Shown here: piece by piece, positions 4,390-28,395 of the stretch
How positions within the stretch are numbered: position 1 is the stretch's first letter
Layout: each line of letters starts with the position of its first letter
Made by a program: the position numbers and the translations under genes
Notes under the pieces: generated by a model
Seen by the model: only the letters and a program-made list of their open reading frames with translations
What the model was told of the DNA's origin: nothing
The model's database searches: none
NCBI GenBank assembly: GCA_016867265.1
Contig: VGJW01000007.1
Span: 62,001-126,000, forward strand
Length of the DNA: 64,000 nt
Origin: Candidatus Tanganyikabacteria bacterium
GTDB lineage: Bacteria; Cyanobacteriota; Sericytochromatia; S15B-MN24; VGJW01
Reading direction: 5' to 3'

Positions 4390-4397
4390 AGCCCGGC

Positions 4398-4983: not shown

Positions 4984-4989
4984 TATCAT
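4984..4989 (+). promoter_or_regulatory. Candidate -10 element for tdk
   Basis: TATCAT in the 106-base divergent gap between the HEAT gene and tdk. It lies 33 bases before the tdk start, leaving room for a leader with the GGGAGGG ribosome site. No clear -35 is seen. Confidence 0.35.
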
Positions 4990-5022
4990 GATCAAGTCAC
5001 TTCGTATCCTCGGGGAGGGTCC

Positions 5023-5661
5023 ATGGCCGGCTTCTACGCACCTGCGTTCAGCCAGGGCTGGATCGAGGTCATCTGCGGATCGATGTACTGCGGCAAGACC
5101 GAGGAACTCATCCGTCGCGTCCGCCGCGCTGAAATTGCGCGCCAGAAGGTTCAGGCCTTCAAGCCCATGATCGACAACCGCTACTTTCCCGAGGACATCT
5201 CCTCGCACGGCGGCTTGCGCATGCGCGCCATCCGGGCGGAAGGCTCCGCCGAAATCCTGCCCCTCATCGAGCCCGACACCCAGATCGTGGCATTGGACGA
5301 GGTGCAGTTCTTCGACATCGGCATGGTCGAGGTCGTCCAGCATCTGGCCGACACCGGCCGACGGGTCATCTGCGCGGGCCTCGACATGGACTTCAGGGGC
5401 CAGCCCTTCACCCTGATGCCCCAGCTCCTCGCCATTGCCGAGAAGGTCGAGAAACTGACGGCCATCTGCGTCCTCTGCGGCGGTCCCGCCACGCGCAGCC
5501 AGCGCCTGATCGACGGGCGTCCCGCTTCTTGGGACGATCCCATCGTGCTCGTGGGGGCGAGCGAATCCTACGAGCCGCGCTGCCGCCAGCACCACGTCAT
5601 CCCGAGGCCGGAGCAGCTGCCGCTCTCGCCGCTCGAGACCCGCACCCCCGTGGCTTCCTGA
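5023..5661 (+). CDS. tdk: Thymidine kinase (type II, zinc-lid)
   Basis: A 212-residue thymidine kinase that phosphorylates thymidine to dTMP in nucleoside salvage. It shows the P-loop [14 protein letters not shown] near residue 20, the Walker B-like [10 protein letters not shown], the GLDMDFRG segment, a zinc-lid CVLCG, and the thymidine-binding loop [10 protein letters not shown]. The second metal pair is Cys/His rather than Cys/Cys. The start at 5023 is set by GGGAGGG three bases upstream and by the family length; the frame is open further upstream but without homology. Confidence 0.95.
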
Positions 5662-5668
5662 GGCGCCC

Positions 5669-6571: not shown

Positions 6572-6603
6572 CGCGCAACCACGCGCAGCGGGCGGGCGTG
6601 GCG

Positions 6604-6609
6604 TAGAAT
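6604..6609 (+). promoter_or_regulatory. -10 element six bases before start (leaderless)
   Basis: TAGAAT, then six bases, then ATG at 6616, with no ribosome-binding site. The same spacing recurs at 58197, 59434 and, on the minus strand, 62671. This implies a leaderless mRNA. Confidence 0.55.
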
Positions 6610-6615
6610 CGGGCC

Positions 6616-8382
6616 ATGCCCTTCGAGCCGCCCCCGTTTCCGGCCGCTCCGGCCGAACGCAGTCGCCGGATCGTGCGGCTGGCGCTTTCAGGCGACCTCG
6701 AGGCCTCGGCCCGCCTCGCCCGCGAACAGGAAGACCCGGAAGACCTCTATCTGGATCTGGTGCTTGCTGCCGCCGCCGCGCGCCAGGCGGCACCTCAGGG
6801 ATTCGCCGCCGCCCGTTGGTCCGAGGCCATCGCCCACTACCGCCCCTTGGTCGAGGAAGGCCTCTCCGGCCTTCACCTGCGCTACCTCGGCGAGGCGTTG
6901 CCCCTCCTCGGGGCCGAAGGCCAATGGGCCCTGCTCCAGGCCCTCGAACCCGAGGTCGACGCCCTGGGGGCCCTGACGGCAGCCCATGAACCTCCCGGGG
7001 GCTTTGTCCGCACCCTCAACGACCTGGTCTTCGGCCTCTATGGCCGCGAGCAAGGCCTGCAGGCGATTCTGGCCCACGGCGCCAGCCACCTGCTGTTGGC
7101 GGACATGGCGGATCGCCTGCCCGATGCCCCCGACATCGACGAGGCCCTGCACGTCCTGCTGCGTCGCGCCGGCGACGACGCCGGTGGCTGGGTCGACCGC
7201 AATGCCAAGGGTGGCAGCCCTTTCACACGCGAGCAACTCAAACGCGCCCTGCTCAAACAGATGGTTGCCCTGACCCTGCTGCACCAACGCGGGCACGACA
7301 TCACGGAACTGGCGCGAACAGGCATCTCGTGGGCAAGGATGGAGGCGCTGCCGCGCCCGCTGCGCCTCGAGATGCTCACGACCACCGCCGCGTTGCTGGA
7401 GCGTACGTCTCCCTCGGTGCGCGCCGCGCTCGCGCCCCTGTGGCGCGCTGCCGCGCTGCCGGCCGATTGGCACCGCGAGGGGCTGCCGCGCCGGTACGCC
7501 GGCCTGATGGCCCAGTTGCTCGCCCACTTCGTGGCCGAGGTGCCCACGCTTGCGGACGAACTGGAGGCCACCCTCTCGTGGTTCCTCGACCACAGCCAGA
7601 TTCTGGACGCCGACCAAGCCGAGGAGACAGCCCTCAACCTTTCGGAAGCCCTGTCCCGCCTGCCCGGGGAGCGGCACCCGGCAGGTCTGATCGAGTTGCT
7701 CGGCTGGTGTCGCCAGGAAGCCCCCGGTGTCGTGCCCAGGGTCCTTGCCGACCTGTCCGGTGCAACGGGATGCACGCCAGATGCGCACGAAACGGGATGG
7801 CCACGGACACCCACCGCGGCATGGCGTGTCGTCCGGGAGGCCCGCGAAGGCTTGCGTCCCCGCTTGGCCGCCGAGGCCCTGCGCCTTGCGCCGTGGTCGC
7901 TGGCGCAAGTTTTGTCCGAGGCAGACCTTGAGGACAGGCTCGCTGCAGCCAACCTGCTGACGACCCATCCCGATGCACTTGCCCAAGCCGGGCTCGGGCC
8001 CCGGATCCGGTCTCTCTTGCGCCAGGCTTGGCCGACGGGCCAGGCAGCCCGGACCCTCGACCTGCTTGAGGACGATGGCCCCGACCCGATCTGGGCCATC
8101 CTGCTGCAGGCCGCCTGGACCGGCGAGGACGATCCCGTCCTTGCGCACGACCAGGCCCTTAGGCAGATCCTGCCCCTCGTGGCCGCGCGGGACGTGCGCC
8201 TCAGTTTGCGCGTGGCCGGCGGCTTCTCCAACCGCAACCACACCAGCTGGTTCGTCGGCCACATGCTGGAAGGTGGCTGGCTCGAGGCCACCACGGCACG
8301 AGAACTCGACGAGGCGGCGCCACACCCCTTCCTCGTCGGAGCCATGGACCTCGAGCAAGCCCGGAGCCGCACGGACGCGTGA
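6616..8382 (+). CDS. Large helical protein, unrecognised
   Basis: A 588-residue protein with no signal peptide, no membrane segment and no motif I recognise. It is rich in Ala, Leu, Arg and Glu with regular amphipathic helical stretches (for example LVLAAAAARQAAP and ALRLAPWSLAQVLSEADLEDRL), so an alpha-solenoid fold is plausible. The start is supported by the leaderless -10 at 6604. The stop overlaps the GTG of the next gene (GTGA), so the two form one unit. GC-rich codon use matches its neighbours. Function unknown. Confidence 0.75.
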   Translation: MPFEPPPFPAAPAERSRRIVRLALSGDLEASARLAREQEDPEDLYLDLVLAAAAARQAAPQGFAAARWSEAIAHYRPLVEEGLSGLHLRYLGEALPLLGAEGQWALLQALEPEVDALGALTAAHEPPGGFVRTLNDLVFGLYGREQGLQAILAHGASHLLLADMADRLPDAPDIDEALHVLLRRAGDDAGGWVDRNAKGGSPFTREQLKRALLKQMVALTLLHQRGHDITELARTGISWARMEALPRPLRLEMLTTTAALLERTSPSVRAALAPLWRAAALPADWHREGLPRRYAGLMAQLLAHFVAEVPTLADELEATLSWFLDHSQILDADQAEETALNLSEALSRLPGERHPAGLIELLGWCRQEAPGVVPRVLADLSGATGCTPDAHETGWPRTPTAAWRVVREAREGLRPRLAAEALRLAPWSLAQVLSEADLEDRLAAANLLTTHPDALAQAGLGPRIRSLLRQAWPTGQAARTLDLLEDDGPDPIWAILLQAAWTGEDDPVLAHDQALRQILPLVAARDVRLSLRVAGGFSNRNHTSWFVGHMLEGGWLEATTARELDEAAPHPFLVGAMDLEQARSRTDA

Positions 8383-10949
8383 AGAACCGAGGATGGCCCC
8401 AAGCCCTTGCCGTCTTGGCGGCTGGGCTGTCCGGGCTACCCGGCTACGCGCAGGACCTCGGCATCGAGGTCGTCGTCCCGGCTCCCTATGTGTGGCGGGG
8501 CGGGGCCGAGGCCATCGAATTCCGCTCGTGGCGTTGGCATCCCGTCGACGATCCGGGCCTCGCCCTTCCCGTTCCGCCAGCGCCCGAGGGACTGTCCCTG
8601 CCATCGGCCGCCCGTACCGGACAGCCCATCAATGACCTCAGGGGCTGGCGAACCCCCGGGCCCGCGGGCTGGATGCGCCTCGCCTTCATGGTCGAGCCTG
8701 CCGGCCTGGGCCAGGACACGATCCTTGCCCTGAAGGGCGTCGCGGCGGATGTCGACATCCACATCAACGGCCGCCTGATGTTGCAAGCGCACGGGGCCGT
8801 CGACCGACCCTGGGATCGCGTGCTCGAGGTCCCTGTCCCGGGCAGCCTGCTACGCGCAAAGGACAATGTCCTGGCGTTGCGCCTCGAGGCCTGGCCCGGC
8901 TTCCCGGGCATTGCCTTCGTCGGATTCCGGGGAGCCTTCGCTGCCCTGCGCCCGGAAGAACCCGTCGCGCCCGTCCGGGCGCCGGCCTGGATCGCGGACC
9001 CGGCAGGCCACCCGCAGGGGCTGCCCCCGCTCGAGCCCGGAACGGGCCGAACCGGCCGAAGGCTGCAGCGCCCCCTGCTGACTTGCGAGATGGACGTCGA
9101 TTCTTGGAAACCCCTCGTGGAGGTCGGCCAGGCCGGATGGTCGGGCAGGATCCGGGCCCCGGGCAAGCCGGTGGCCGAGACGGTCTTCGTGACGGCCCGC
9201 GGAAAGACGGGGCGGGTTCTGGAGCGACGGACGCCCGACGGCGCGGGGCTCTGGCGGGTCTACCAGCCACTGTTGGCGCCGGGCTGGGTCGTCGAGGCCC
9301 TGGACGCGCAGATTGTCCTCGAAGTAGCGGAAGTCGGCCGGTTCACGCGATGCGATTCCTGGGGCTGCATCCAGCTACCCTTGCCGGACGGACGGCCCGC
9401 CACCTCGCCGGGGGCCTCGCCGTGGATGTTGCTGGAAAGCAGGAGCACGAGCGTACCGCTGCTGCTGGCCAGTGACGACAGGCGTCCTTTCGAGGCCGGC
9501 ATCGCAACCCGAGACGGCACGATGTCGATTGCGCTGGAACCCGGGCAACATCTGCGCGTCCTGTGGCCCGAGGGAGCATGGGCGGCAACCGGGGCCCGTT
9601 CCGGAACGGGCCCCGACTCGGCGCGTCTCGCCCGTGCCCGTTTCTGGGCTTCAGCCGCCCTGCCATGGGCTTCCACGACCGTCGCCACGGGCTACACCGG
9701 CGACGGCCGCATGATGCTCGAGGACCGGTGGCGCCACCTGCCCTTCGGGTCCACGCCCGTAGCCGTACTGCCCCCGGCTCTGGGCCTGCGCGCGACCGGG
9801 AACGGTAACCCGGCGTGGGTGCGGACCGATGCCCCGGACCTCGACGTGACGACGCCTGAGGGGCCCCTGCTCGGGCTGGCGGGGGACCGCATCGCCTACG
9901 CCGTCCCCGCTCCCCGACGCCAGCCCGTGCGCCGCATCACCTCGTCGGACAACCCGGGGCCCTGGGCAGCGGGCGCCGTCGGCTACCTCGACCAAGCCGC
10001 CCGGGACGCCCTGGCATTGCCTTGGCTGGACACCGCGCTGCCCTTGACACCGAGCACCGCGCCCCGGGAAGCGCTGGCCCGGGTGTGGCGCGATCGCGCG
10101 TGGGAACGGACGCCCACGCTCGAGGGCAGCGGCGGCCTGCGCTGGCTCCAGGCCTGGCTGGATACCGACAGACAGCCCGTGGATGCCGTGCTCGAGACCG
10201 GACCCGTGCTGGATCGCACGGCCCGCATGACGGATGCGGGCGGCATGCGGGCCTTGGGTGCATCCGTCCTGCTCGCCCAAGTGACGGACAGCCTCGGTCG
10301 TCATCAGGACCCGGCCAGCCTGCTGATCCCCACGGGCGTGGAAGGCCGAGAGAAGCCCGATGGCGAACATGCCGTCGCGGCGTGGCTTGCCATGACCGGT
10401 TCCTGGCGTCTCGCCCCGGGCCGGGAGGAGCCACGCTGGAAGGCCCTGGCCGCCCGGCTCGGCCCCTTGGCCGCCGACCCCGGCGCACGAACCCGCTGGC
10501 GACGCTGCCTCGGCATCGTCGACCGGCTCCCGCCACCCACTCCCTCCGGTCGCGCCGAGACCCGCGAGGGTCAAGGCTGGCCTCTCACGCTGCCTCGTCC
10601 TGCCGAGGCAGCCTGGCTGAACCATCCGGACGTGGTGCCGGGTCTGCGCGAGGTGCGCGGCAAGGACGCGTGGCTGCTGGCCTCGGAGGGTGTCGAGGTG
10701 CTGGCAGGCCGACACCGGCCGGACGACCGGTCGCTGGAGCTGGCCCTTCGCCTGCGGCACAACGATCGCAGGGAACGACGCATCATCCTGCTGTTGCCGG
10801 AGGGAGCCGTGGATCTGGCCCGGGTCGAAGCCGATACCGGCCCGGGGCCCTCGGACGTCCGGATCAGGAAGACGGGCGGACGCCACGAGATCATCCTCGA
10901 GGGCACGCCTCCCGAGGGTCCGCTGACCCTGCGCTTCCGCTATGCTTAG
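8379..10949 (+). CDS. Exported 856-residue protein with a jelly-roll-like N-terminal module
   Basis: Starts with GTG overlapping the preceding stop. Residues 1-25 form a signal peptide ending GYAQ. Residues of about 80-200 read like a sugar-binding jelly roll, as found before glycoside hydrolase family 2 cores: WMRLAFMVEP, VDIHINGRLMLQAHG and DNVLALRLEAWPGFPG. The remainder is beta-rich with many Trp and Pro residues and no catalytic motif I recognise. It probably acts in the periplasm or at the surface. It may depend on the co-transcribed 588-residue cytoplasmic protein, but nothing in the sequence shows how. Confidence 0.7.
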   Translation: MKNRGWPQALAVLAAGLSGLPGYAQDLGIEVVVPAPYVWRGGAEAIEFRSWRWHPVDDPGLALPVPPAPEGLSLPSAARTGQPINDLRGWRTPGPAGWMRLAFMVEPAGLGQDTILALKGVAADVDIHINGRLMLQAHGAVDRPWDRVLEVPVPGSLLRAKDNVLALRLEAWPGFPGIAFVGFRGAFAALRPEEPVAPVRAPAWIADPAGHPQGLPPLEPGTGRTGRRLQRPLLTCEMDVDSWKPLVEVGQAGWSGRIRAPGKPVAETVFVTARGKTGRVLERRTPDGAGLWRVYQPLLAPGWVVEALDAQIVLEVAEVGRFTRCDSWGCIQLPLPDGRPATSPGASPWMLLESRSTSVPLLLASDDRRPFEAGIATRDGTMSIALEPGQHLRVLWPEGAWAATGARSGTGPDSARLARARFWASAALPWASTTVATGYTGDGRMMLEDRWRHLPFGSTPVAVLPPALGLRATGNGNPAWVRTDAPDLDVTTPEGPLLGLAGDRIAYAVPAPRRQPVRRITSSDNPGPWAAGAVGYLDQAARDALALPWLDTALPLTPSTAPREALARVWRDRAWERTPTLEGSGGLRWLQAWLDTDRQPVDAVLETGPVLDRTARMTDAGGMRALGASVLLAQVTDSLGRHQDPASLLIPTGVEGREKPDGEHAVAAWLAMTGSWRLAPGREEPRWKALAARLGPLAADPGARTRWRRCLGIVDRLPPPTPSGRAETREGQGWPLTLPRPAEAAWLNHPDVVPGLREVRGKDAWLLASEGVEVLAGRHRPDDRSLELALRLRHNDRRERRIILLLPEGAVDLARVEADTGPGPSDVRIRKTGGRHEIILEGTPPEGPLTLRFRYA

Positions 10950-16520: not shown

Positions 16521-17144
16521 ATGCGGTCGCACACCTTCGCCTCGGCGCTTGTCGCCGGCGCCTTGCTGGTGGCTGGCCGCGCCCTTGCGGCCGTGAGCGT
16601 CCCGCTGCCTGCGGCCGCAAGCGTGTCCCATCCGCTGGCCCGCAGCGTGACGCTTGCGCCCCTCCTCGATCGGACAGGATTGCCCGAGGTCGAGGTCTGG
16701 GCCCGCCAGACCCAGGACCTGCTGGCCCCGGACACCTTGCCTCTCCGCACAATCGGCCCCGCCGAAGCCACGGCCATGACCCGCGCGGCCAAGCTGGCCG
16801 ATTGGGACGTGCGTTGGCAGTCGACCCCGGTCCGTCCGGATGTCCCGGCGTTCCGGGCCCTGATCCGGGAACTCGGGCTCGCGACGGGCACGGACCAGAT
16901 CCTCGTCCAGGAACTCATCGGCCTTGCCCGGGTCCCCAACCCCGAAACCGGCCGGGACACGGACTTGGACGTGGCCTTCCGCCAAACCCTGCTCGAGAGT
17001 CGGACAGGGGCACTCGTCTGGCAAGGGAGCTCATCCTTCGCCATGCCCGTCCTTGAAGCCGAGGCCGAGCCCGCCGTGCGCAGGGCCCTGCTGGAAACGA
17101 TGAAGGCATCCCTCGGCGACTGCCCGTGGAGAACCGTGCGATGA
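16521..17144 (+). CDS. Exported protein of unknown function inside the bkd operon
   Basis: A 207-residue protein with a Sec signal peptide (MRSHTFASALVAGALLVAGRALA). The start is set by GGAAGGA six bases upstream. The mature part contains a segment (LAPLLDRTGLPEVEVWARQ to LLESRTGALVWQG) that resembles periplasmic envelope proteins related to GNA1162/CsgG-type folds, but the match is by general pattern only. Its stop overlaps the start of the lipoprotein that follows. It sits between E2 and E3 genes with no obvious metabolic link. Confidence 0.65.
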   Translation: MRSHTFASALVAGALLVAGRALAAVSVPLPAAASVSHPLARSVTLAPLLDRTGLPEVEVWARQTQDLLAPDTLPLRTIGPAEATAMTRAAKLADWDVRWQSTPVRPDVPAFRALIRELGLATGTDQILVQELIGLARVPNPETGRDTDLDVAFRQTLLESRTGALVWQGSSSFAMPVLEAEAEPAVRRALLETMKASLGDCPWRTVR

Positions 17145-17773
17145 CAAGGCTCCCGTTCGTCCACTGCGTTGTCGCCGCCCTGGCGCTCGCGGGCTGCTTC
17201 GGCCGACAGGCCGCCGTCAAGCCCGAGCGCGCGGACGGCACCGTGGAGGCCGTGACGGCGGACCGCCCCGTGGCGCTGCGGCGCGTGGCCGTGTTGCCCA
17301 TCCTGAACCGCACGGACGAACCTGAAGCCCCGGTGCGCCTCGCCGAAGAGATGGGTCGCCAGCTGGCCGATATCAAGGACCTCAAGCTGGTCGGTCCGGA
17401 AACGGCCCGCAAACAGCTGGCCCCGATGTACGAGACGGGCATGATTGGGCGCTTCGTGTCCGACCTCGACGAGGATCGCCGGACCTCGCCCGACCTTGCC
17501 CGCCTGGTGGGTGCCGGGCTGGGCGTTGACGGCGTGCTGGTCACGACCGTAACGCTCTACCAGCAGTACACCGACCGATTCCCGGATGGCACCCCCGCCG
17601 AGGTGGCCACGACCATCGTGGCCGTGCAGGCTGCCGTCGTCGATACCTTGACCGGGCGCACCGCCTGGAGCAACGCCGTGCTCGAACGCGCCCGCGGCGG
17701 CCGGGACTATCCTCCCTATGACCGGACGGTGGCGACGGCCGTCCGCAACCTGCTGGCCACCTGGCCGCGCTGA
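17141..17773 (+). CDS. Lipoprotein, CsgG/GNA1162-like pattern
   Basis: A 210-residue lipoprotein: the start at 17141 overlaps the previous stop and gives a short signal peptide ending in the lipobox LAGC. The mature part has VAVLPILNRTDEPEAPVRLAEEM, LVGPETARKQL, LGVDGVLVTTVTLYQQY and a closing TAWSNAVLE. This order is typical of periplasmic lipoproteins of the CsgG/GNA1162/LptE-like class that assemble at the outer membrane. The GTG at 17126 would extend the N-terminus and spoil the signal peptide. It likely forms a pair with the preceding exported protein. Confidence 0.7.
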   Translation: MTRLPFVHCVVAALALAGCFGRQAAVKPERADGTVEAVTADRPVALRRVAVLPILNRTDEPEAPVRLAEEMGRQLADIKDLKLVGPETARKQLAPMYETGMIGRFVSDLDEDRRTSPDLARLVGAGLGVDGVLVTTVTLYQQYTDRFPDGTPAEVATTIVAVQAAVVDTLTGRTAWSNAVLERARGGRDYPPYDRTVATAVRNLLATWPR

Positions 17774-17793: not shown

Positions 17794-19212
17794 ATGACCA
17801 CCCGCAAGACCCAGGCCCTCGTCATCGGTGCCGGCCCCGGAGGCTACGTCGCGGCTATTCGCCTTGGCCAGCTCGGCATCCAGACGCTGGTCGTCGACAA
17901 GGCCGCGCTGGGCGGCACCTGCCTGAACGTCGGCTGCATTCCCTCCAAGGCCATGATCACGGCAGCCAAGTTCGCGGACAAGGCCCGCCATGCCGAAAGC
18001 ATGGGCATCAAGGTGGGCTCGGTCGACGTCGACATGCCCGGCGTCATCCGCTGGAAGGACGATGTCGTCAAGAAGCTCGTCGGCGGCGTCGGCACCTTGC
18101 TGAAGGGCCACGGCATCGAGGTGCTCAACGGCCGCGCCACGTTCCGCGGCCCCAAGACGGTGGAAGTCATGACCGAGAAGGGACCCGTCACCGTCGAAGC
18201 CGACCACACTATCATCGCCACGGGCTCGATCCCGCTGGCGATTCCGGGCTTCGTCCCCGACGGCCAGCGCATCATCGATTCGACGGGCGCCCTCGCACTG
18301 ACGTCGCTTCCCAATCGGATGGTCGTCATCGGCGGCGGCTACATCGGGCTCGAGCTCGGCACCGCCTATGCCAAGTTGGGGACCAAGGTCACGGTCCTCG
18401 AGGGCACCGACCAGCTGCTGCCCGGCTTCGATCCCGAGATCGCCAAGCTCATCGAGCGCAAGCTCAAGAAGCTGGGCGTCGAGATTGTCCTCAAGGCGAA
18501 GGCCAAGGGCTGGAGCGAAGGCATCAACGGTGTGGCCGTCCAGTACGAGGCCGACGGCGGGACCAAGACGGCCGTGTGTGACAAGGTGCTCGTCACGGTC
18601 GGCCGCAAGCCCTACAGCGAAGGCCTGGGCCTCGAGGCCGCCGGCTTGACGGTGGACGCCAAGGGCTTCATCACGGTCGACAACCAGATGCGGACGCAGG
18701 TGCCCGGCATCTATTGCATCGGCGACCTCGCCGGGCAGCCCATGCTGGCGCACAAGGCCAGCCGCGAGGGAGAAGTCGCCGCCGAAGTCATCGCCGGCCG
18801 CCCGAGCGCCATGGATGCACGCACGATTCCCGCCGTCGTGTTCACGGATCCCGAAATTGCGACGGCCGGCATCATGGAGCATGAGGCCAAGGCACAGGGC
18901 CTCGACGTGCACGTCGGCAAGTTCCCATTCGCGGCGCTGGGTCGGGCCCTGACGACCCAGGAGACGGACGGGTTCTTCAAGGTCGTGCTCGACCGCAAGA
19001 CCGAGGAGATCCTCGGGGTGGCGATCGTGGGCCCCAATGCCTCGGACTTGATTGCCGAAGCCACGCTGGCCATCGAGATGGGGGCGCTCTTCGACGATCT
19101 TGCCCTGACCATCCACGCGCATCCGACCCTGCCGGAAGGCCTCAAGGAGGCGGTCCTCGCCGCCAAGGGCGAGGCCATCCACGCCCTCTCGGCGCCGATG
19201 GCCCGGGCCTAG
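17794..19212 (+). CDS. lpdA: Dihydrolipoyl dehydrogenase (E3)
   Basis: A 472-residue flavoprotein that reoxidises the dihydrolipoyl arm of E2 and passes electrons to NAD. It shows the FAD loop GAGPGGYVAAIRLGQLG, the redox disulfide in GGTCLNVGCIPSKA, the NAD loop VVIGGGYIGLELG, and the C-terminal catalytic His-Glu in HAHPTLPEGLKEA. CAGGAG lies seven bases before the ATG. It completes the operon begun by E1alpha. Confidence 0.97.
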   Translation: MTTRKTQALVIGAGPGGYVAAIRLGQLGIQTLVVDKAALGGTCLNVGCIPSKAMITAAKFADKARHAESMGIKVGSVDVDMPGVIRWKDDVVKKLVGGVGTLLKGHGIEVLNGRATFRGPKTVEVMTEKGPVTVEADHTIIATGSIPLAIPGFVPDGQRIIDSTGALALTSLPNRMVVIGGGYIGLELGTAYAKLGTKVTVLEGTDQLLPGFDPEIAKLIERKLKKLGVEIVLKAKAKGWSEGINGVAVQYEADGGTKTAVCDKVLVTVGRKPYSEGLGLEAAGLTVDAKGFITVDNQMRTQVPGIYCIGDLAGQPMLAHKASREGEVAAEVIAGRPSAMDARTIPAVVFTDPEIATAGIMEHEAKAQGLDVHVGKFPFAALGRALTTQETDGFFKVVLDRKTEEILGVAIVGPNASDLIAEATLAIEMGALFDDLALTIHAHPTLPEGLKEAVLAAKGEAIHALSAPMARA

Positions 19213-19224
19213 GTCGCCGGCCCC

Positions 19225-22200
19225 ATGGCGGTTCATGACTGGGTCGTCGTCGGCCATGAGACCGAGGCCGTCCTCGCCGCTGTGGCGGGGGCACGCCTCG
19301 GCCTCGATACCGTGCTTGTGGTGCCGCGGGATCGCATGCTGGGCGGCCTGCTGACGGAGGGCGGTCTCGCTTTCGTCGACCGGGACTCCCGGCATCTGAC
19401 GCCACCCGCGGCAACCCCCGCCGATGGCCTCTTTGCCGAGTTCCTCGCACGCGCAGGCGTGCGCCTCGTCGCCCTCGATCCCGACAAGGGTGCACAGGCT
19501 CTCGCGGCCATGCTGCACGAGGCTGGCGTCCGGATCGTGCAGGGGGCGTGGCACCGGACGCGTGCCGTGCCCTCCACCCATGGCCTCGTCCTTGAGGCCA
19601 TCGAGGTCGACGGCCAGTGGATCGAAGGGCGAGCCTTCCTCGACGGCACGCCCGACGGCGACCTCGCCGAGGTGCTGGGGGTACCCTTCGCCACGGGCTT
19701 CACCGAACACGGTACGGACCGGGTCCTGGGGATCAGCCCCTTGCCCCGCGTCCGCGGCGTAACGCCGGAAACCATCGTGTCCACCTGCCGCATGCTGGCG
19801 CAGGACCCGGATCTCGAGACCCGCAAGCAGGCGGCCTTCGGGAACCGACGCTTTCTGGATCTGGATGCTGGAGACGACTGGATTCTGATCGGTCCTCCCT
19901 ACGTGGCGCTTGCCTTCCAGCGCTGGCGCGAGAAAGTGAACGCGCCCTGTCCCGTCACCTTCGAGGCCGACGGCTTCAACGTGGCCGTCCTGGGTCCGGA
20001 TGACACCAGCTGGAACGGTCTCATCTACCACGTCGACGATCCGCTGCGACGCCTCGCGTGGTCGCGCGAGGGCGCCGACGACACGATGCGTGCCGAGGTG
20101 GCTCTCTTCGGGCGGTTCCTGCGCGAGGGTCTCGGCTGGCAGGACGCCGACGTCTCTTGTCCGCCGGGCCTGTATGTCCGGCAGACCCGACATGCGCGCC
20201 GCACCCGCCACCTGCTGGGCTTGGCCGAAATAGCATCGGGTGCGCCCCTGCCCCGGGTGGGAACCTTCTGCTACTGGCCGGACTTCCGCGGGTTCGCCGT
20301 CACGCCCACGCAAGGCCCCCTGGTGGCGCCCGTCGTGCCCGGGGCCGGCTGGCTCGCGGACTGGACGAACGTCGGCATGGCCAGCCGGGCGGCCGGCTAT
20401 ACGGCTCCGGCCCATTCCCTCTGCCGCCTCGTGCAGGTCAACGTCGTGCTGGGCACGGGTCTCGCCGCCGCCGTAGCCGTGCACCTGGGCAAGCAAGGCC
20501 CCTCGATCGGAACGGCCTGCGCGCCCGAGGTGCCGGATGCCCGCATCCGGGCCGTGCTGGCCGAGGCCGGATTGGCCAATGACGACCTGAGTGACCTCGC
20601 GGACACACCGAAGCGGGCCGCCGCACTTGCCGATGACCCGCTCGTGCGGGGCGAGACCAGGCTGCTCGCGCCTGCACCTGTACCCGTCATCGATCCCGAC
20701 GATCGGCGCCAAGACTGGCTGACACGGGTCCGTATCGACCTCGCCGGAACGCGACCGATCATGGATGGTCCTTTCGGTCCGCGGCAGATGGTCTATGCCG
20801 ACGACATCGCCACGGGCCGGGCACTCGAGTTCCTCGAGGACCGGCTAACCAAGATGCTGCTGCCCATGCATGCCAACCCGCATTCCGAGGCCTCGGCGGT
20901 CGGGATGGCTTCCGGTCGCTGGCGCGAACAGGCCCGCGACAGGGTGGCCCTCGCCTTGGGCGCCGGTCCCGACCATGCCGTTCTTTTCACAGGATCCGGT
21001 TCGACGGCGGCCGTCGATCGCTTCGTCGGCATTCTGGGTTGGAAGGTTCCGACGGACCCCGACCTCGCCGATCGCCTGCGCCGCAGCCTGTCGCCGACCG
21101 AGCGCCCCGTCGTGCTGCTGGGTCCCTGGGAGCACCACTCCAACGAATTGCCGTGGCGCGAATCCATCGCCCAGATCGAAACCCTGCCCGAAGGCCCCGA
21201 CGGCCAACCGGACCGGGACGCGCTCGCCGAGGCCCTCGTGCGACACAAGGGCCGACGCCTGCTGGGCTCATTCTCGGCAGCCAGCAACGTGACGGGCCAG
21301 AAGGCCGACGTCGCGGGCCTGGCGGCCCAGTTGCACCGAGGCGGGGCGCTGGCTTGCGTGGACGCCGCTGCGGCCGGTCCCTACCTGCGCTACGCCATGG
21401 CGCCCGCCGCGAAGCCTGAGGAAGGCCTCGACGCGTTGTTCATGTCCATGCACAAGTTCGTCGGCGGCCCCGGGACGCCGGGCATCCTTGCGCTGCGGCG
21501 CGACCTCGTCCGCCATCCCGTCCCTGCGGTCCCCGGCGGCGGGACCGTCGCCTACGTCGGCCCTTCCGAGCATCGCTACCTGCTCGACCCCGTACGGCGG
21601 GAAGAAGGAGGTACACCGGACGTCCCGGGTGCCGTCCGGGCCGGCCTGTGCATGGTGGTCCGGGATCGCGTCGGCATGCCTGTCATCGAAGCCCTTGAAC
21701 ACGAGTTGGTCACGCGGGGCCGACAGGTCTGGGGCCGGCATCCGGGCCTCGTGGTGCTGGGTTCCGACACGGCCGATCGCCTGCCGTTCTTCAGCATGCT
21801 GGTTCGCCACGGCGAGGGTTTCCTGCACCACGGCTTCGTCGTGGTCCTGCTGAGCGATCTGTTCGGTATTCAGGCGCGGGGCGGCTGCTCGTGCGCGGGC
21901 CCCTACGGCCACCGACTGCTGGGCATCGATGCGACCACCAGCCGGCGCTTCGAACGGGCCATAGCCGAGGGCCATGAGGTCCTGAAACCCGGCTGGGTCC
22001 GCCTGGGCCTGCACTGGTGCCAGGATGCCGGCACGGTCAACCTGCTGCTGGACGCCATGACGTTCGTGGCCGAGCACGGCTGGAAGTTCCTGCCGCAGTA
22101 CCACGTCGATCCCGCGAGCGGCCGCTGGACCCATCGATTCCGGGCCCGCCCCGAGGTTCCCCACCTGGACACGTGGCTGGATCCCCGGGGTCCCGCGACC

Positions 22201-22419
22201 GCGATGGCCGCGCCCGCACTGGGGGACATCCTGCCCCGGGCGCATGCCTTGGCCGACGAGGCCGGGCAGGAAGCGGCAAGGCAGGGCCCGCTGCCTGTCC
22301 AGGGCCTGCCCGCGAGCATCGACGACCTCCGGTGGTTCGCCTGGCCGCACGAAGTCCTGGCCGACTGGCAGGCAGGTGTCCCCTTGCCGGCGCCCCGCGT
22401 GCCCTTCCGGATGGCCTGA
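19225..22419 (+). CDS. Fusion of an FAD-dependent oxidoreductase with a class V aminotransferase-like domain
   Basis: One uninterrupted frame of 1064 residues. Residues 1 to about 440 read as an FAD_oxidored-family flavoprotein: a beta strand DWVVVG, then LGGLLTEGGLAFVDRDSRH, FLDGTPDGDLAEVLGVPFATG, and a closing segment NVVLGTGLAAAVAVHL. The dinucleotide loop is GHETEA instead of GxGxxG. Residues of about 505-1000 read as a PLP enzyme of the cysteine desulfurase fold: HANPHSEASAVG, VLFTGSGSTAAVDRFVG, ACVDAAAAGPY, and the PLP Lys in MSMHKFVGGPGTPG (Lys744). A Cys-rich GGCSCAGPYG follows. It starts 12 bases after lpdA and heads the cobalamin genes. The reaction is unknown; sulfur or amino-group chemistry coupled to a flavin is an inference. 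Confidence 0.85.
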   Translation: MAVHDWVVVGHETEAVLAAVAGARLGLDTVLVVPRDRMLGGLLTEGGLAFVDRDSRHLTPPAATPADGLFAEFLARAGVRLVALDPDKGAQALAAMLHEAGVRIVQGAWHRTRAVPSTHGLVLEAIEVDGQWIEGRAFLDGTPDGDLAEVLGVPFATGFTEHGTDRVLGISPLPRVRGVTPETIVSTCRMLAQDPDLETRKQAAFGNRRFLDLDAGDDWILIGPPYVALAFQRWREKVNAPCPVTFEADGFNVAVLGPDDTSWNGLIYHVDDPLRRLAWSREGADDTMRAEVALFGRFLREGLGWQDADVSCPPGLYVRQTRHARRTRHLLGLAEIASGAPLPRVGTFCYWPDFRGFAVTPTQGPLVAPVVPGAGWLADWTNVGMASRAAGYTAPAHSLCRLVQVNVVLGTGLAAAVAVHLGKQGPSIGTACAPEVPDARIRAVLAEAGLANDDLSDLADTPKRAAALADDPLVRGETRLLAPAPVPVIDPDDRRQDWLTRVRIDLAGTRPIMDGPFGPRQMVYADDIATGRALEFLEDRLTKMLLPMHANPHSEASAVGMASGRWREQARDRVALALGAGPDHAVLFTGSGSTAAVDRFVGILGWKVPTDPDLADRLRRSLSPTERPVVLLGPWEHHSNELPWRESIAQIETLPEGPDGQPDRDALAEALVRHKGRRLLGSFSAASNVTGQKADVAGLAAQLHRGGALACVDAAAAGPYLRYAMAPAAKPEEGLDALFMSMHKFVGGPGTPGILALRRDLVRHPVPAVPGGGTVAYVGPSEHRYLLDPVRREEGGTPDVPGAVRAGLCMVVRDRVGMPVIEALEHELVTRGRQVWGRHPGLVVLGSDTADRLPFFSMLVRHGEGFLHHGFVVVLLSDLFGIQARGGCSCAGPYGHRLLGIDATTSRRFERAIAEGHEVLKPGWVRLGLHWCQDAGTVNLLLDAMTFVAEHGWKFLPQYHVDPASGRWTHRFRARPEVPHLDTWLDPRGPATAMAAPALGDILPRAHALADEAGQEAARQGPLPVQGLPASIDDLRWFAWPHEVLADWQAGVPLPAPRVPFRMA

Positions 22420-22439: not shown

Positions 22440-23306
22440 ATGGAGCGTCTTTGCGCCGTGCTGGTGCTGATCGGGAGCCTGTTGCTGCCGACCCCGTCGG
22501 AAGCAGCCCTGCAGGTTCGGGATGATCGGGGCCAGATCATTCGGTTCGCACAGCCACCGCGACGCATCGTGAGCGTCCTGCCCTCGCTGACGGAAACGGT
22601 CGCGGCCCTCGGGGGACTCGATCGCCTCGTCGGTACGGATCGCTACTCGGACTGGCCTGAAAACGTCCGTGCATTGCCCAAGGTCGGGGGCGGCATCGAC
22701 CCCAATCTCGAGGCCATCGTGGCCCTGCGCCCGGACTGCGTGCTGATCGCTCCCTCGGCCCGAGTGAGCCGAAGGCTCGAACAGCTGGGGCTTCGCGTCG
22801 TGGCGCTCGAGCCCAAGACCCACGCCGATGTCCGGCGCGTCATCCGGGTCGTGGGCACCTTGCTCGGCAGCTCGTCGGTCCCGCGCCTGCTGACCGACAT
22901 GGAGCGCGGCCTCGACGCAGCGGCCGTCCGGGTGCCGGCCAAGGCCAAGGGCATGCGTGCCTATGTCGAGGTAGATCGGACGCCCTACGCCGCAAGCAGC
23001 GGCTCCTTCCTGGGCGAGACCTTGGCCCGGTTGGGGCTTGCCAACATCGTGCCGGCCTCGATGGGGCCCTTCCCCCACCTCAATCCCGAGTTCGTGGTCT
23101 CGGCCAACCCGTCCGTCATCCTGATGGCCGGGGGCAGTGCGGCCGAGCTTTCGGCCCGGCCAGGCTGGAAGCGCATCGAGGCCGTGCGATTGGGCAGGGT
23201 CCGTGTCTTCGATCAGCAGGAAGGCAACGTTCTGGTCCGGCCGGGTCCCCGCCTGGCCGAGGCAGCCGCCCTCCTCGCGGATGCCCTCGCGGTACTGGTG
23301 CCTTGA
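22440..23306 (+). CDS. btuF: Periplasmic cobalamin-binding protein of an ABC importer
   Basis: A 288-residue substrate-binding protein of the BtuF/FhuD class. The start at 22440 gives a signal peptide (MERLCAVLVLIGSLLLPTPSEA); a GTG at 22425 is an alternative. Family marks are RRIVSVLPSLTETVAALGGLDRLVGTD, PKVGGGIDPNLEAIVALRPD, VVALEP and NPEFVVSANPSVILMAGG. No lipobox is seen, so it should be free in the periplasm. Cobalamin rather than haem or siderophore is inferred from the cobO-cobT-cobS-cobC genes downstream. Confidence 0.85.
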   Translation: MERLCAVLVLIGSLLLPTPSEAALQVRDDRGQIIRFAQPPRRIVSVLPSLTETVAALGGLDRLVGTDRYSDWPENVRALPKVGGGIDPNLEAIVALRPDCVLIAPSARVSRRLEQLGLRVVALEPKTHADVRRVIRVVGTLLGSSSVPRLLTDMERGLDAAAVRVPAKAKGMRAYVEVDRTPYAASSGSFLGETLARLGLANIVPASMGPFPHLNPEFVVSANPSVILMAGGSAAELSARPGWKRIEAVRLGRVRVFDQQEGNVLVRPGPRLAEAAALLADALAVLVP

Positions 23307-24295
23307 CCGGTCGGCTCTTGGCGGGACTCGGGGTCCTGACGGTCTTGCTTGGCCTGCTCGGGCTCTGCCTGGGTTCGACGGGCTGGATCTGGCTCTGGCA
23401 TGAGGGCACCGACCCCGTCATCCTCTGGGAACTGCGCATGCCGCGAACCGCGGGCGCATGGTTGGCCGGCGGCCTGCTGGGCCTCGTCGGGGCCATCGCG
23501 CAGGGGCTGTTCCGCAATCCGCTGGCGGACCCCTACCTCCTGGGCAGCGCATCCGGTGCCTCGCTGGGTGTCGCGGCCGTGCTGGCCGTGGGTGGCACCG
23601 CCGGGGCCGAGGCCATGGCTGCGGGGTCGTGGCTGCTGCGCCTCGGCCTGACGGGCGCGGCCTTCCTTGGGGCCATCGCCGCGGTCCTCCTGACCCTGGT
23701 GCTGGCCCAGGGATTGGCCCACACGTTGCGCCTGCTGCTGGCGGGCGTGATCGTCGGTGTGGTCCTGGGAGCCGTCACGTCCCTGCTGGGACTCGCCGTC
23801 CCCGCCATCGCCCCGGCCCTTCAAGCCTTCATGGTGGGCAGCACCGGCCTGCTTGGCTGGACCTCGGTCACCCTGCTGGCCCTCGTCCTGTCCTCGGGCC
23901 TCACCGTGGCCATCCTGCTGGGCCCGTGGCTGGATGCGCTTTCGCTGGGCGAGGAAACGGCCACCAGCCTCGGCTTGCCCGTCACCCTGCTCCGCAGCGT
24001 GATGCTGGCCATCCTCGCCTTGGGCACGGGCACCGTCGTCGCGCAGGCGGGCCTCATCGCCTTCGTCGGCCTCGCGGCACCGCACGCGGTCCGTGCCGCG
24101 ACCCGTCTGACACACCGGCCGCTGCTGCTGGCTTCGTCGCTGATGGGTGGCGTGCTGCTGCTGGGAGCCGACCTGCTGTCCCGCTGGCTGCTGGCCCCGC
24201 AGGAACTGCCCGTGGGCATCCTGACGGCCTGCCTGGGCGGTGGCTACCTGCTCTGGTGGATGCAACGGCAGGGCCAAGGGGGGCAGGTAGCGTGA
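23303..24295 (+). CDS. btuC: Cobalamin ABC importer permease (FecCD/BtuC family)
   Basis: A 330-residue permease with about ten hydrophobic segments. Family marks are ELRMPRTAGAWLAGGLLGLVGAIAQGLFRNPLADPYLLG near residues 40-75 and GLIAFVGLAAPHAVRAATRL near 250, the loop that contacts the ATPase. It starts with TTG at 23303, overlapping the btuF stop (TTGA), and ends overlapping the ATPase start (GTGA). Imports vitamin B12 across the inner membrane. Confidence 0.92.
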   Translation: MTGRLLAGLGVLTVLLGLLGLCLGSTGWIWLWHEGTDPVILWELRMPRTAGAWLAGGLLGLVGAIAQGLFRNPLADPYLLGSASGASLGVAAVLAVGGTAGAEAMAAGSWLLRLGLTGAAFLGAIAAVLLTLVLAQGLAHTLRLLLAGVIVGVVLGAVTSLLGLAVPAIAPALQAFMVGSTGLLGWTSVTLLALVLSSGLTVAILLGPWLDALSLGEETATSLGLPVTLLRSVMLAILALGTGTVVAQAGLIAFVGLAAPHAVRAATRLTHRPLLLASSLMGGVLLLGADLLSRWLLAPQELPVGILTACLGGGYLLWWMQRQGQGGQVA

Positions 24296-25086
24296 CCACG
24301 GCCCCGTTCCTGGCGCCTGAGGGCATGCCGGCCCTGAGCGCACGCGGGCTCGACGTGGGGGCCGGACACCGTCGGCTGCTGGGTCCCTTGGACCTCGAAC
24401 TGGCATCCGGCACGTGGACCAGCCTCGTCGGTCCCAACGGCGCGGGCAAGTCCACCTTGCTGAGAGCACTTGCGGGCGTGATCCCGCACGAAGGCGAGGT
24501 CCTCTGGCATGGCATGGCCCGATCGGGCATGCCGCCGCGCGCCCGGGGCCGCCATCTGGCCTGGCTGGGCCACGAGATGCCCGGGGCCGAGGACCTGCTG
24601 GTCGAAGATGTCGTCATGCTGGGCCGGCTGCCCCACCAGGACCTGCTCTCGGGCATCCGGCCCCGGGACAGGGAGGCCGTGAACCAGGCACTCGAGGCTG
24701 CCGGCGCGAGCTATTGGCGGAAGCGGGCCATGGGCACGCTCTCGGCGGGCGAGCGCCAGCGTGTCCGGCTCGCACGGGTGCTGGCCGTGAATGCCCCGGT
24801 GCTGCTGCTAGACGAGCCTCTCGCCAACCTCGATCCACCGCATCAAGCGGACGTTCTTGCCCTGATACGACGTCTGGTCGATGCAGGCAGGACGGTCGTG
24901 ACCGTGCTGCATGAGTTGCAGCCTGCCCTGTCGGCAGACCGGATGCTGATCCTCGAATGCGGCGGCATCCGGCATCATGGTGCCTGCAGCGATCTGCGCA
25001 CGCACCGCGAGCTCGAGGGCGTGTTCCTCGATCGCATCGCCATCCACCACATTGGGGACATCCCCATCCCGATGCCCCGCACCTGA
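24292..25086 (+). CDS. btuD: Cobalamin ABC importer ATPase
   Basis: A 264-residue ABC ATPase starting at GTG 24292. It shows Walker A GPNGAGKSTLLRAL, a Q-loop region in WLGHEMPGAED, the signature LSAGERQRVRLARVLA, Walker B and catalytic Glu in VLLLDEPLANLD, and the switch His in VTVLHEL. The Q-loop Gln appears replaced (LGHEM where LpQ is usual), which is worth noting but not disabling. Partner of the permease immediately upstream. Confidence 0.92.
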   Translation: MTTAPFLAPEGMPALSARGLDVGAGHRRLLGPLDLELASGTWTSLVGPNGAGKSTLLRALAGVIPHEGEVLWHGMARSGMPPRARGRHLAWLGHEMPGAEDLLVEDVVMLGRLPHQDLLSGIRPRDREAVNQALEAAGASYWRKRAMGTLSAGERQRVRLARVLAVNAPVLLLDEPLANLDPPHQADVLALIRRLVDAGRTVVTVLHELQPALSADRMLILECGGIRHHGACSDLRTHRELEGVFLDRIAIHHIGDIPIPMPRT

Positions 25087-25104
25087 GTCCCACCGGAGCC
25101 ACCC

Positions 25105-25674
25105 ATGGAACCCGTGACGCCCCCGACCGAAAAGCCCTTGCTGAACCCGGATGGGCAGCGCCGAGGGCTGGTCCTCGTCCATACCGGCGACGGCAAGGGC
25201 AAGAGCACGGCGGCCTTCGGGCTGGCTGCCCGGGCCCACGGTCGCGGCAAGCCGGTGAAGGTGTTCCAGTTCATGAAGTTGCCCACCTCGCGATTTGGCG
25301 AGCACCGTGCGTGCGAGACGCTGGGACTGCCCGTCGAAGGCCTGGGCGACGGCTTCAGCTGGGACAGCAAGGACCTCGAGCGATCGGCCGGAATCGCCCT
25401 CGAGGGCTGGCGAAAGGTCAAAGTTGCCATCCTGTCGGGCGAATGGTTCATGGTCGTGCTGGACGAGGTCACCTATCCCGTGCGATTCGGATGGATTCCC
25501 CTCGAGGACGTCCTCGAGACACTGCGTGCGCGCCCGGAGCACGTTCATGTTGTTCTGACCGGCCGGGACTGTCCGGAAGAGATCGTCGACGTGGCCGACA
25601 CGGTCACGGACATGCACCTTGTCAAGCACGCCTTCCAAGCCGGCATCCCCGCACAGCGCGGCATCGAGGACTGA
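25105..25674 (+). CDS. cobO: Cob(I)alamin adenosyltransferase, CobO/BtuR type
   Basis: A 189-residue ATP:corrinoid adenosyltransferase. It shows the P-loop VHTGDGKGKSTAAFGLAARA, the FQFMK strand, GLGDGFSWDSKD, and the Walker B-like VVLDEVTYPVRFGW. It makes the Co-adenosyl bond of coenzyme B12 and also acts on corrinoids on the salvage route. CCGGAG lies six bases before the ATG. Position after the btuFCD genes suggests adenosylation of imported corrinoid. Confidence 0.96.
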   Translation: MEPVTPPTEKPLLNPDGQRRGLVLVHTGDGKGKSTAAFGLAARAHGRGKPVKVFQFMKLPTSRFGEHRACETLGLPVEGLGDGFSWDSKDLERSAGIALEGWRKVKVAILSGEWFMVVLDEVTYPVRFGWIPLEDVLETLRARPEHVHVVLTGRDCPEEIVDVADTVTDMHLVKHAFQAGIPAQRGIED

Positions 25675-25679
25675 GCCCC

Positions 25680-26684
25680 ATGACTACGCCCCTGCGCGAG
25701 GCCCTGATGGCCCGCATGGATGCCAAGACCAAGCCCCTCGGGGCGCTTGGCCGCCTCGAGGATCTGGCCATTCAACTGGGCCTGATCCTCGGAACCGAAC
25801 ACCCCAGACTGCATGAGCCCCAGATGGTGGTCTTTGCCGGGGACCATGGTCTGGCCAGCCACGGCGTTTCGGCCTACCCGTCGGACGTGACATGGCAGAT
25901 GGTCGAGAACTTTCTTGCGGGCGGAGCAGCCGTCAGCGTCCTCGCCCGACTGCACGGCCTGGCGCTGACAATCGTGGACTGCGGCGTCGCCCACGAATTC
26001 GGACCGCGCCCCGGCCTCATCGACCACAAGGTGGCACCGGGCACGGCAGACTCCCGAACCGGTCCTGCGATGACGGAGGATCAGTGCGCAGCGGCGATCG
26101 CCGCAGGTGCGGACGTCGTGCGAAGCCTGCCCGGCAATGTCCTGCTGCTGGGCGAAATGGGCATCGGCAACACGTCTGCGGCTGCCCTGCTGATGGCCAG
26201 GCTGACGGGTCGGGACATCGCCTCGTGCACGGGCTCGGGGACGGGCCTCGATGCCACGGGCATCGCCCGCAAGACGGCCATCCTGCAGGACGTGCTGGAC
26301 CGGCACGCCGACGCGCAAGCTCCGATGGAGGCCTTGGCCGCCATGGGCGGCTTCGAGATCGCGGCCATGGTCGGGGCCGTCCGTGAAGCAGCACGCCAGC
26401 GTCGCGTCGTGGTCGTCGACGGCTTCATCGCCACCGCGGCAGTCCGGGTGGCCGTTGCCTTGGACCCCGCAGTCAAGGACACCTGCGTCTATGCGCACGC
26501 CTCGGGCGAGCGCGGACACGCCGTCCTGCTGGCCGAGATGGAGGTGCGCCCTCTGCTGGACCTGGGCATGCGCCTGGGCGAGGGATCGGGCGCTGCCGTC
26601 GCCTGGCCCCTGCTGCTCGCCGCCACGTGCCTGCTGGACGAGATGGCGACCTTTGCCTCGGCCGGAGTCTCGGAGCGCACGTGA
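25680..26684 (+). CDS. cobT: Nicotinate-nucleotide--dimethylbenzimidazole phosphoribosyltransferase
   Basis: A 334-residue enzyme that activates the lower ligand base as alpha-ribazole 5'-phosphate. Family marks are TKPLGALGRLEDLA near the start, VVFAGDHGLASHGVSAYPSDVT, GEMGIGNTSAAALL, TGRDIASCTGSGTGLD and the C-terminal catalytic Glu in MRLGEGSGAAVAWPLL. The start at 25680 follows cobO by five bases. The stop overlaps the cobS start (GTGA). Confidence 0.97.
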   Translation: MTTPLREALMARMDAKTKPLGALGRLEDLAIQLGLILGTEHPRLHEPQMVVFAGDHGLASHGVSAYPSDVTWQMVENFLAGGAAVSVLARLHGLALTIVDCGVAHEFGPRPGLIDHKVAPGTADSRTGPAMTEDQCAAAIAAGADVVRSLPGNVLLLGEMGIGNTSAAALLMARLTGRDIASCTGSGTGLDATGIARKTAILQDVLDRHADAQAPMEALAAMGGFEIAAMVGAVREAARQRRVVVVDGFIATAAVRVAVALDPAVKDTCVYAHASGERGHAVLLAEMEVRPLLDLGMRLGEGSGAAVAWPLLLAATCLLDEMATFASAGVSERT

Positions 26685-27748
26685 GGCCCCCGCGCAAGAC
26701 CCGCATCAAGGGCACGCAACCCGGTGCGCCGACGCCCTCGGATGCCGGCCCCTTCGAGGCGATGCTGGCGCCGTTGCTCGGTCCCGCGACAGCCCCGAAG
26801 GCTCCCCTGCAACCGACGGAGGCTGTGGCGCCAGACGGCTCGATCGTGCCGGGTCCCGCCCCTTTCACGGCGCCCTTGCCGCTCTCGATTCCCGGACCGC
26901 TGCCCCCGCCACCGGAGCCACCCCGGCTCCGAACACCCGCGGATACGCTGCGCGAGGTCCTGCTGGCGGTGCAGTTCTTCACGCGGATCCCGATCACGGG
27001 CCGATTGGCCGACTGGGTCGGCTTCAGTCCGGCGATGCTTCGTGCCAGCGCGGCCCACTTTCCCGCGATCGGGCTCATGATCGGCGGCCTCGCCGCCCTC
27101 GTGCAGCTCGGGATCATGCTCGGCATGCCGGCCGGACCGATGCGCCCCCTGCTGGCAGCCGTCCTGGGCACGCTGGCGACGGTGTGGGCGACGGGAGCCT
27201 TCCACGAGGACGGGATGGCCGATACGGCCGACGGTCTGGGCGGCAGCATGGATCGCGACCGCGCCCTCGAGATCATGAAGGACTCGCGGGTTGGTACCTA
27301 CGGCAGCATCGCGCTCTGGCTGACACTCGCCACCAAGGTGGTGACGCTGGCCATGCTGGGCGCGGAAAGCCTGGGCGCCATGTTGGCCGCAGGCCTCGCG
27401 GCACATGGTGTCTCGCGCCTGCTGCCGCTGGGGCTGGTGGCCTCGATGCGTCATGTCGGGGACACGGCCACCTCCAAGGCCAAGCCGCTCGCGGATGCCA
27501 TCGGGATGGAAGGCCTCGTCATCGCGGCGCTGTGGACGTTGCCTGCCCTCTTGCCGCTGTCCTCGCTGGCCGGATCGACCGTGCTGGCCGCGGCCCTGCT
27601 GGCAGCCTTCCTCGCCGCATATGCCGCGTGGCGCCTGTTCCGCAGGCGGTTGGGCGGCTTCACGGGGGATAGTCTGGGCGCGGCCCAGCAGGGCAGCGAA
27701 GTCGCGTTCCTGCTGGGCGCGGCCTTCGCCATTGGCCAAGGCCTGTGA
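26681..27748 (+). CDS. cobS: Adenosylcobinamide-GDP ribazoletransferase with an unusual N-terminal extension
   Basis: A 355-residue membrane enzyme that joins adenosylcobinamide-GDP and alpha-ribazole. The family core begins near residue 90 (VQFFTRIPITG) and contains the metal/substrate motif FHEDGMADTADGLGG, then KDSRVGTYGSIAL, and several membrane helices. The first 85 residues are Pro/Ala/Thr-rich, low in complexity and not part of the family, which is usually near 250 residues. The GTG at 26681 overlaps the cobT stop; the extension is in frame with no stop or alternative start near the core, so it appears genuine. Confidence 0.93.
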   Translation: MRPPRKTRIKGTQPGAPTPSDAGPFEAMLAPLLGPATAPKAPLQPTEAVAPDGSIVPGPAPFTAPLPLSIPGPLPPPPEPPRLRTPADTLREVLLAVQFFTRIPITGRLADWVGFSPAMLRASAAHFPAIGLMIGGLAALVQLGIMLGMPAGPMRPLLAAVLGTLATVWATGAFHEDGMADTADGLGGSMDRDRALEIMKDSRVGTYGSIALWLTLATKVVTLAMLGAESLGAMLAAGLAAHGVSRLLPLGLVASMRHVGDTATSKAKPLADAIGMEGLVIAALWTLPALLPLSSLAGSTVLAAALLAAFLAAYAAWRLFRRRLGGFTGDSLGAAQQGSEVAFLLGAAFAIGQGL

Positions 27749-28395
27749 CGACGACGGGTCCGGCCTTCGGTACCGTGCGGCCCCTGCGGGTCTTGCGCCA
27801 TGCGCGAGTCAAGGTGGCTCGGGGCATCTGCTACGGGCTGCAGGACGTCCCTTTCAGCCGGACCCACACCGCCCAGGTGGCCGCAGCCTTCGTTGACGCC
27901 CTCGACGGGCGCGTACCCGCCCGAGCACGGATATCCCCGCGCACCCGATGCCTCGCGCTCTGGCAGGCGGTGGCCGGCCAACTGAGGCGGGACGAGGCCG
28001 GCCACGCACCGGACGGCAGCCGCATCGCCGTCTCGATTGACTCAAGAATCGGGGAGATGGACTTCGGTGCTTGGGAGGGGCTGGCCTGGGGGCATATCCC
28101 CGAAGCCCAGATGACGGGCTGGACGGACCGCTTTCTGGACTATCCGTGCGGCGGTGGCGAATCGGTAAGACGGTTTCTGAGCCGGATGCTCGAGGCGTGG
28201 CAAGAGGATGCCGAAAGTCCGGCGGGCATCATCTGGGTCGCTCACGCGGGCATCCTGCGCGGGCTCGAGGTACTCGAGGCGAACGGCTGGAAGGTCCCGG
28301 ACCAGTTGGCAGCGTCCGACTGGCCACGGCGCAGCCTCGACTTCGGAGCCTGGGAGGACTATCCCCTCGGCATCGGCATCGGGGCCCGGGCCTGA
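27745..28395 (+). CDS. cobC: Histidine phosphatase family protein, likely alpha-ribazole phosphatase
   Basis: A 216-residue phosphoglycerate-mutase-fold protein. The catalytic RHG motif appears as VLRHARVK (Gly replaced by Ala), followed by CYGLQDVPFS, the conserved Glu region MDFGAWEGLAWGHIP and the second catalytic His in WVAHAGILRGL. The GTG start overlaps the cobS stop. Position at the end of the B12 operon supports dephosphorylation of alpha-ribazole-phosphate or of adenosylcobalamin-phosphate. CobU/CobP is not in the window. Confidence 0.88.
   Translation: MTTTGPAFGTVRPLRVLRHARVKVARGICYGLQDVPFSRTHTAQVAAAFVDALDGRVPARARISPRTRCLALWQAVAGQLRRDEAGHAPDGSRIAVSIDSRIGEMDFGAWEGLAWGHIPEAQMTGWTDRFLDYPCGGGESVRRFLSRMLEAWQEDAESPAGIIWVAHAGILRGLEVLEANGWKVPDQLAASDWPRRSLDFGAWEDYPLGIGIGARA

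Follow-up and report, generated by a model that had tools for sequence, protein, structure and literature searches.

What joins an FAD_oxidored-like domain to a PLP-dependent domain in one reading frame, and to which metabolism would such a protein belong? The frame in question is encoded in a 2.85 Mb metagenome-assembled genome (41 contigs) of the Sericytochromatia, a class of Cyanobacteriota without photosynthesis, within a 64,000-nucleotide stretch (hereafter the window) of a 138 kb contig, where it lies between a lipA-pdhABC-lpdA cluster and a group of btu/cob genes. A preliminary description of the window placed the gene at the head of a cobalamin operon and suggested a role perhaps in corrinoid or sulfur metabolism.

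Organization of the fused gene

The fused gene (19225..22419, plus strand, stop codon included) consists of one frame of 1064 aa that begins with ATG. The preliminary description had read it as an FAD_oxidored-like half followed by a class V aminotransferase half, and the domain search that it proposed places both above their Pfam cutoffs: FAD_oxidored (PF12831) matches nearly over its full length at residues 5-420 (83.8 bits, E=2e-23, cutoff 27), and Aminotran_5 (PF00266) matches at residues 523-897 (109.7 bits, E=2e-31, cutoff 21.5). The motifs that it had singled out were likewise located, GHETEA at residues 10-15, the presumed PLP lysine Lys744 within SMHKF (741-745), and GGCSCAG at 886-892. 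In alignments, the FAD-protein relatives end near residue 480 and the stand-alone PLP proteins start near residue 496, so that both halves are complete with about 15 residues between them. The gene is thus divided into an FAD half of the GxE subfamily (residues 1-480; 19225..20664, plus strand), a linker (residues 481-495; 20665..20709, plus strand), and a PLP half (residues 496-1064; 20710..22416, plus strand) that comprises a cysteine desulfurase-like class V domain and a long-form C-terminal extension.

A start-codon scan of residues 440-560 revealed no in-frame ATG, GTG or TTG between residues 475 and 512, and the PLP half therefore lacks a separate start at the expected place. The frame is uninterrupted, containing neither a stop nor an N, and GC content, third-position GC and codon use are equal in both halves and similar to those of the surrounding genes. 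With both native ends kept, no separate PLP start, and equal composition in the halves, the end-to-end fusion is probably genuine and not brand new.

The FAD half and its ancestral neighbourhood

The GxGxxG dinucleotide loop is absent from the FAD half, where Glu replaces the second Gly. The preliminary description was correct in noting GHETEA at this position, but the feature is not special to the fusion, being a trait of a whole subfamily that cyanobacteria share. Across 15 aligned homologues, some of them cyanobacterial with ∼30% identity, Gly10 and Glu12 do not vary, and the pattern GxExx(A/G/S) holds throughout the subfamily, which lacks a conserved acidic residue where strand 2 ends. In contrast, GxG is retained by those other PF12831 members of the class and phylum whose sequences could be read, and in most of them an acidic residue follows strand 2. 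Thus, the FAD half shares with FAD_oxidored proteins a nearly full-length domain match above cutoff and a Rossmann start, whereas it differs from them in its invariant Glu and in the missing acidic residue. The cyanobacterial FAD_oxidored proteins L032-L038 (505-550 aa) carry the same GxE loop and form a distinct subfamily with it; a sequence search found no solved structure for them. The AlphaFold model of the FAD half has a pLDDT of 90.3 and contains no ligand, and solved flavoproteins match this model at a TM of only ∼0.45, flavin monooxygenases and MnmG showing a distant likeness. A Glu at the second Gly of a Rossmann fold would normally disturb the pyrophosphate contact. We describe the FAD half as a flavoprotein-like domain with putative FAD binding.

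Every one of the nine remaining genomes of the order has a stand-alone orthologue of the FAD half (465-504 residues, 47-58% identity by blastp), and so does one genome of the class outside the order, giving 10 in total; Cys400 of the FAD half is invariant within the class. In all four other genomes of the same family (G001-G004) the orthologue neighbours lpdA: three have it as the next gene downstream, and in the fourth a single gene on the opposite strand intervenes. Two of the four also keep the HD-pdhA-pdhB-pdhC-lpdA set. The same set is present in the window with lipA in front, and its lpdA (dihydrolipoyl dehydrogenase; 17794..19212, plus strand; TIGR01350 at 557.6 bits, cutoff 408.8) ends 12 bases ahead of the fused gene. 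The adjacency to lpdA throughout the family implies that the FAD half stands in its ancestral place, and that its original neighbours are those on the lpdA side. Between pdhC and lpdA (window 16521-17773) lie genes for two small uncharacterised proteins, the second of which (17126-17773) adjoins lpdA in G001 and G004 too. Elsewhere in the order the neighbours of the FAD half vary: it follows sufBCD-sufS-nfu in G006 and lies beside a thioredoxin-like NHL protein in G009, and in several other genomes of the order it has no sulfur-related neighbour.

The PLP half resembles cysteine desulfurases

In a single-sequence search the best PDB matches of the PLP half are SufS-type cysteine desulfurases; this search is the fair test, as profile A2 contains the SufS of the genome itself and its strong SufS match is partly circular. 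Homologues occur on 79 plasmid records, mostly at 39-47% identity and mainly from rhizobia and roseobacters, whereas those of Rhodococcus and Deinococcus are closest to the PLP half of the window. The resulting clade, found mostly on plasmids of alphaproteobacteria, Rhodococcus and Deinococcus, is set apart from the genome's own SufS (26-27% identity to the PLP half) and from other class V proteins of this family with 100/100 support, in a tree that carries a long-branch warning and of which the broad clade split alone is used. No close kin of the PLP half was found elsewhere in 386 Cyanobacteriota genomes, which fits a gain by horizontal transfer.

His637, Asp713, Lys744, Arg885, Cys890 and Arg926 are invariant in 19 clade members and common to the genome's own SufS, and align with the catalytic positions of SufS. 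His743, which precedes the PLP lysine, is likewise invariant in the 19 and shared with that SufS, and the invariance of Cys888 in the 19 members creates a CxC motif with the active-site Cys890. The PLP half thus has in common with SufS/CsdA-type desulfurases the fold and, by alignment, the PLP lysine, the active-site Cys, the substrate-binding Arg and the catalytic His, whereas it differs from them in a CxC in place of HHC, in its C-terminal extension, in the Gln of the DxxQ motif, which is present in SufS and in L026/L027 but replaced by Ala, Gly or Cys in 19 of 19 clade members, and in its score for SufS (TIGR01979: 100.8 bits against a cutoff of 475.1). Because the catalytic residues are kept but the Gln is replaced and the SufS cutoff is failed, we call the PLP half desulfurase-like: it is most likely a cysteine desulfurase-like class V enzyme, with a predicted activity on L-cysteine.

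Neighbours of the stand-alone PLP enzymes

The surroundings of the PLP homologues were compared at 19 plasmid loci. An Lrp/AsnC gene is divergent from the homologue at 11 of them, and a twelfth locus has an Lrp gene in the vicinity. Six of the 19 (Rhizobium, Agrobacterium, Aminobacter, Sinorhizobium, Neorhizobium and Ensifer) have a gene for a metallo-beta-lactamase-fold protein immediately downstream. Three of these six were scanned and match the dioxygenase half of Blh, a bifunctional sulfur transferase/dioxygenase, at E-values of 1e-158 to 1e-168; as these proteins lack the rhodanese half, they do not reach the equivalog cutoff. The six downstream genes, all rhizobial, are, judged by the three scanned, Blh-type persulfide dioxygenases. 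A recurrent unit of the rhizobial plasmids (L043, L044, L045, L062, L065 and L066, at about 5300-8300) consists of the divergent Lrp/AsnC gene, the CxC PLP enzyme and a lone Blh dioxygenase half, the start and stop of the latter two overlapping or nearly so, and is a candidate cysteine-to-sulfite pathway; the Rhizobium locus encodes a TauE/SafE sulfite exporter in addition. A literature search found no paper that joins a class V aminotransferase with a persulfide dioxygenase. These units share with the fused gene the PLP enzyme, 39-47% identical and encoded there as a stand-alone gene, but they are without the FAD half, whereas the fused gene has neither an Lrp nor a dioxygenase gene adjacent to it. 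For a persulfide dioxygenase, the host genome gives only a weak match of 34%.

At two roseobacter loci the PLP enzyme occurs with a DAO-family FAD-dependent oxidase and ATC hydrolase, the latter being an enzyme of a route to cysteine. These roseobacter plasmids (L042 and L047, at about 2400-10700) carry an operon-like set of a peptide ABC transporter, the PLP enzyme, the DAO-family oxidase, ATC hydrolase and an M20 aminoacylase, which looks like a system for importing and degrading a thiazoline or cysteine derivative. Taken over the 19 loci, at several of which no sulfur gene lies near the PLP enzyme, the neighbours of the kin point to cysteine or persulfide turnover.

A putative desulfurase with an attached flavoprotein-like domain

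We propose, with a confidence that we would put at about even, that the gene is a genuine fusion, and that the flavoprotein-like domain attached to its cysteine desulfurase either handles the persulfide formed there or lies close to where this happens. By alignment, Lys744 would hold PLP and Arg926 would bind the carboxylate of L-cysteine, the sulfur being passed to Cys890 as a persulfide and alanine being left. Judging from the neighbours of the stand-alone kin, the persulfide would serve the turnover of sulfur or cysteine and not the house-keeping assembly of Fe-S clusters, for which the genome has its own SufS. In the weakest step, the flavoprotein-like domain, which represents an old protein of Sericytochromatia and cyanobacteria, would accept or process the sulfur, or at least be held beside the desulfurase, as in two fusions already described. 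In the molybdenum cofactor sulfurase ABA3/MOCOS, a cysteine desulfurase domain that forms a persulfide on a strictly conserved Cys is fused to a sulfur-receiving domain (PMC3916724), and bifunctionality has been demonstrated for CD-rhodanese, a desulfurase fusion that occurs naturally in the bacterium Pseudorhodoferax (PMC8931425). In ABA3/MOCOS, however, the desulfurase is N-terminal and its partner binds Moco, whereas the desulfurase-like half of the present protein is C-terminal; Pfam gives only FAD_oxidored and Aminotran_5, with no MOSC or Moco-binding domain in the fused protein. The partner in CD-rhodanese is a rhodanese domain, as opposed to the FAD_oxidored-like partner here. As to origin, a horizontally acquired desulfurase-like gene may have come to lie directly after the FAD gene behind lpdA.

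A joint sulfur role is favoured by the position of the FAD half after suf-nfu in G006 and beside the thioredoxin-like NHL protein in G009, and by the sulfur genes beside the PLP kin. Against it stand the missing DxxQ Gln of the clade, the several relatives of each half without a sulfur gene nearby, and the occurrence of the fusion in one genome only, which leaves no conservation to show its usefulness. The preliminary description had proposed a survey for further fusions or for the two halves as neighbours, and neither turned up: no second fusion was found in 386 Cyanobacteriota genomes, 18 of the class among them, in a search that scored the two best candidates per genome and may miss weak second matches; no plasmid record covers 80% of the fusion; and genome contigs gave no match to the whole fused protein and, with the FAD alignment, returned only copies of known loci. 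Nor are the halves adjacent in any other genome examined. A 1006-codon stop-free frame in G009 was considered as a second fusion and rejected, the gene there being 467 aa long and standing alone.

The same rarity agrees with a joining by accident, in which a near-neutral read-through of neighbouring genes was kept as both domains still fold, the halves doing unrelated work. Such a chance fusion of two independent genes is quite possible, if somewhat unlikely: the linker of ∼15 residues and the retention of both native ends are as expected from it, but neither half has lost its conserved residues or its normal codon use, which indicates that the joint gene has not decayed, and each half has some independent sulfur- or thiol-linked neighbours. 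The assignment of the PLP half could also be amiss, as the absence of the DxxQ Gln from the whole clade, scores far below every curated NCBIfam cutoff, and the loci without a sulfur gene nearby would all suit a different class V activity, for instance that of a selenocysteine lyase, of a cysteine sulfinate desulfinase, or of a lyase or epimerase whose substrate is another amino acid. We consider this unlikely, given that the clade retains the active-site Cys, the His and both Arg residues of SufS, and that persulfide dioxygenase and ATC hydrolase genes adjoin clade members. There is a small chance that the frame is an assembly or sequencing error, by which a stop was lost or the frame shifted between two adjacent genes. 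The single metagenome-assembled genome and a junction exactly at the meeting point of two complete genes would allow for this, but a lost stop alone is insufficient where the PLP start site has no in-frame start codon, and the absence of N and the equal composition across the halves also argue against it.

The corrinoid genes are neighbours in this genome only

The ATG of a btuF-like gene at 22440 lies 20 bases past the stop of the fused gene, a distance that, like the 12 bases to lpdA, the preliminary description had given correctly. It opens a series of btuF/C/D-like transporter genes, cobO/cobA, cobT, cobS and cobC on the plus strand (22440..28395; NCBIfam matches), which we do not count as parts of the system. 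The cobS frame (window 26627-27748) has ∼100 extra N-terminal residues, the cobS-family match beginning at residue 107, and its true start is probably further in. The linkage to btu/cob genes that was to be surveyed did not recur, as no btuF, btuC, cobO, cobT, cobS or cobC was detected at E ≤ 1e-12 in the flanks of the 10 FAD-half relatives or at the 19 PLP plasmid loci. As some flank contigs are short, this absence carries more weight at the plasmid loci than in G001 and G005. The btuD matches in these flanks are generic ABC ATPases. A role in corrinoid metabolism as the first gene of a cobalamin operon is thus very improbable, for although the fused gene does precede these genes closely and on the same strand, its FAD half belongs with lpdA and neither half keeps such company elsewhere. 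The link to vitamin B12 looks like chance, with the B12 genes as unrelated neighbours, and between the corrinoid and sulfur metabolism first suggested it is the latter that is supported, on account of the desulfurase-like PLP half and of its kin beside persulfide dioxygenase or ATC hydrolase.

Implications

Desulfurase-acceptor fusions are already known; what appears to be new is an FAD_oxidored-like domain as the partner, subject to the caution on chance given above, and a literature search found no desulfurase-FAD_oxidored fusion. A broader reading, which we regard as decidedly unlikely, is that FAD_oxidored proteins with the GxE loop handle sulfur in Sericytochromatia and cyanobacteria, a role so far unrecognised, and act near lipoyl or Fe-S supply, the fusion exposing this role by adding a desulfurase as the sulfur donor; its context is lipA-pdh-lpdA beside the FAD half in one family and suf-nfu before it in another genome. 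Natural fusions often reveal proteins that work together, and the present one connects a predicted release of sulfur from cysteine with an uncharacterised flavoprotein-like subfamily whose dinucleotide motif is altered. Enzymes of the desulfurase-like clade are themselves encoded close together with an Lrp regulator and a persulfide dioxygenase; such a compact unit would constitute a simple route from cysteine to sulfite.
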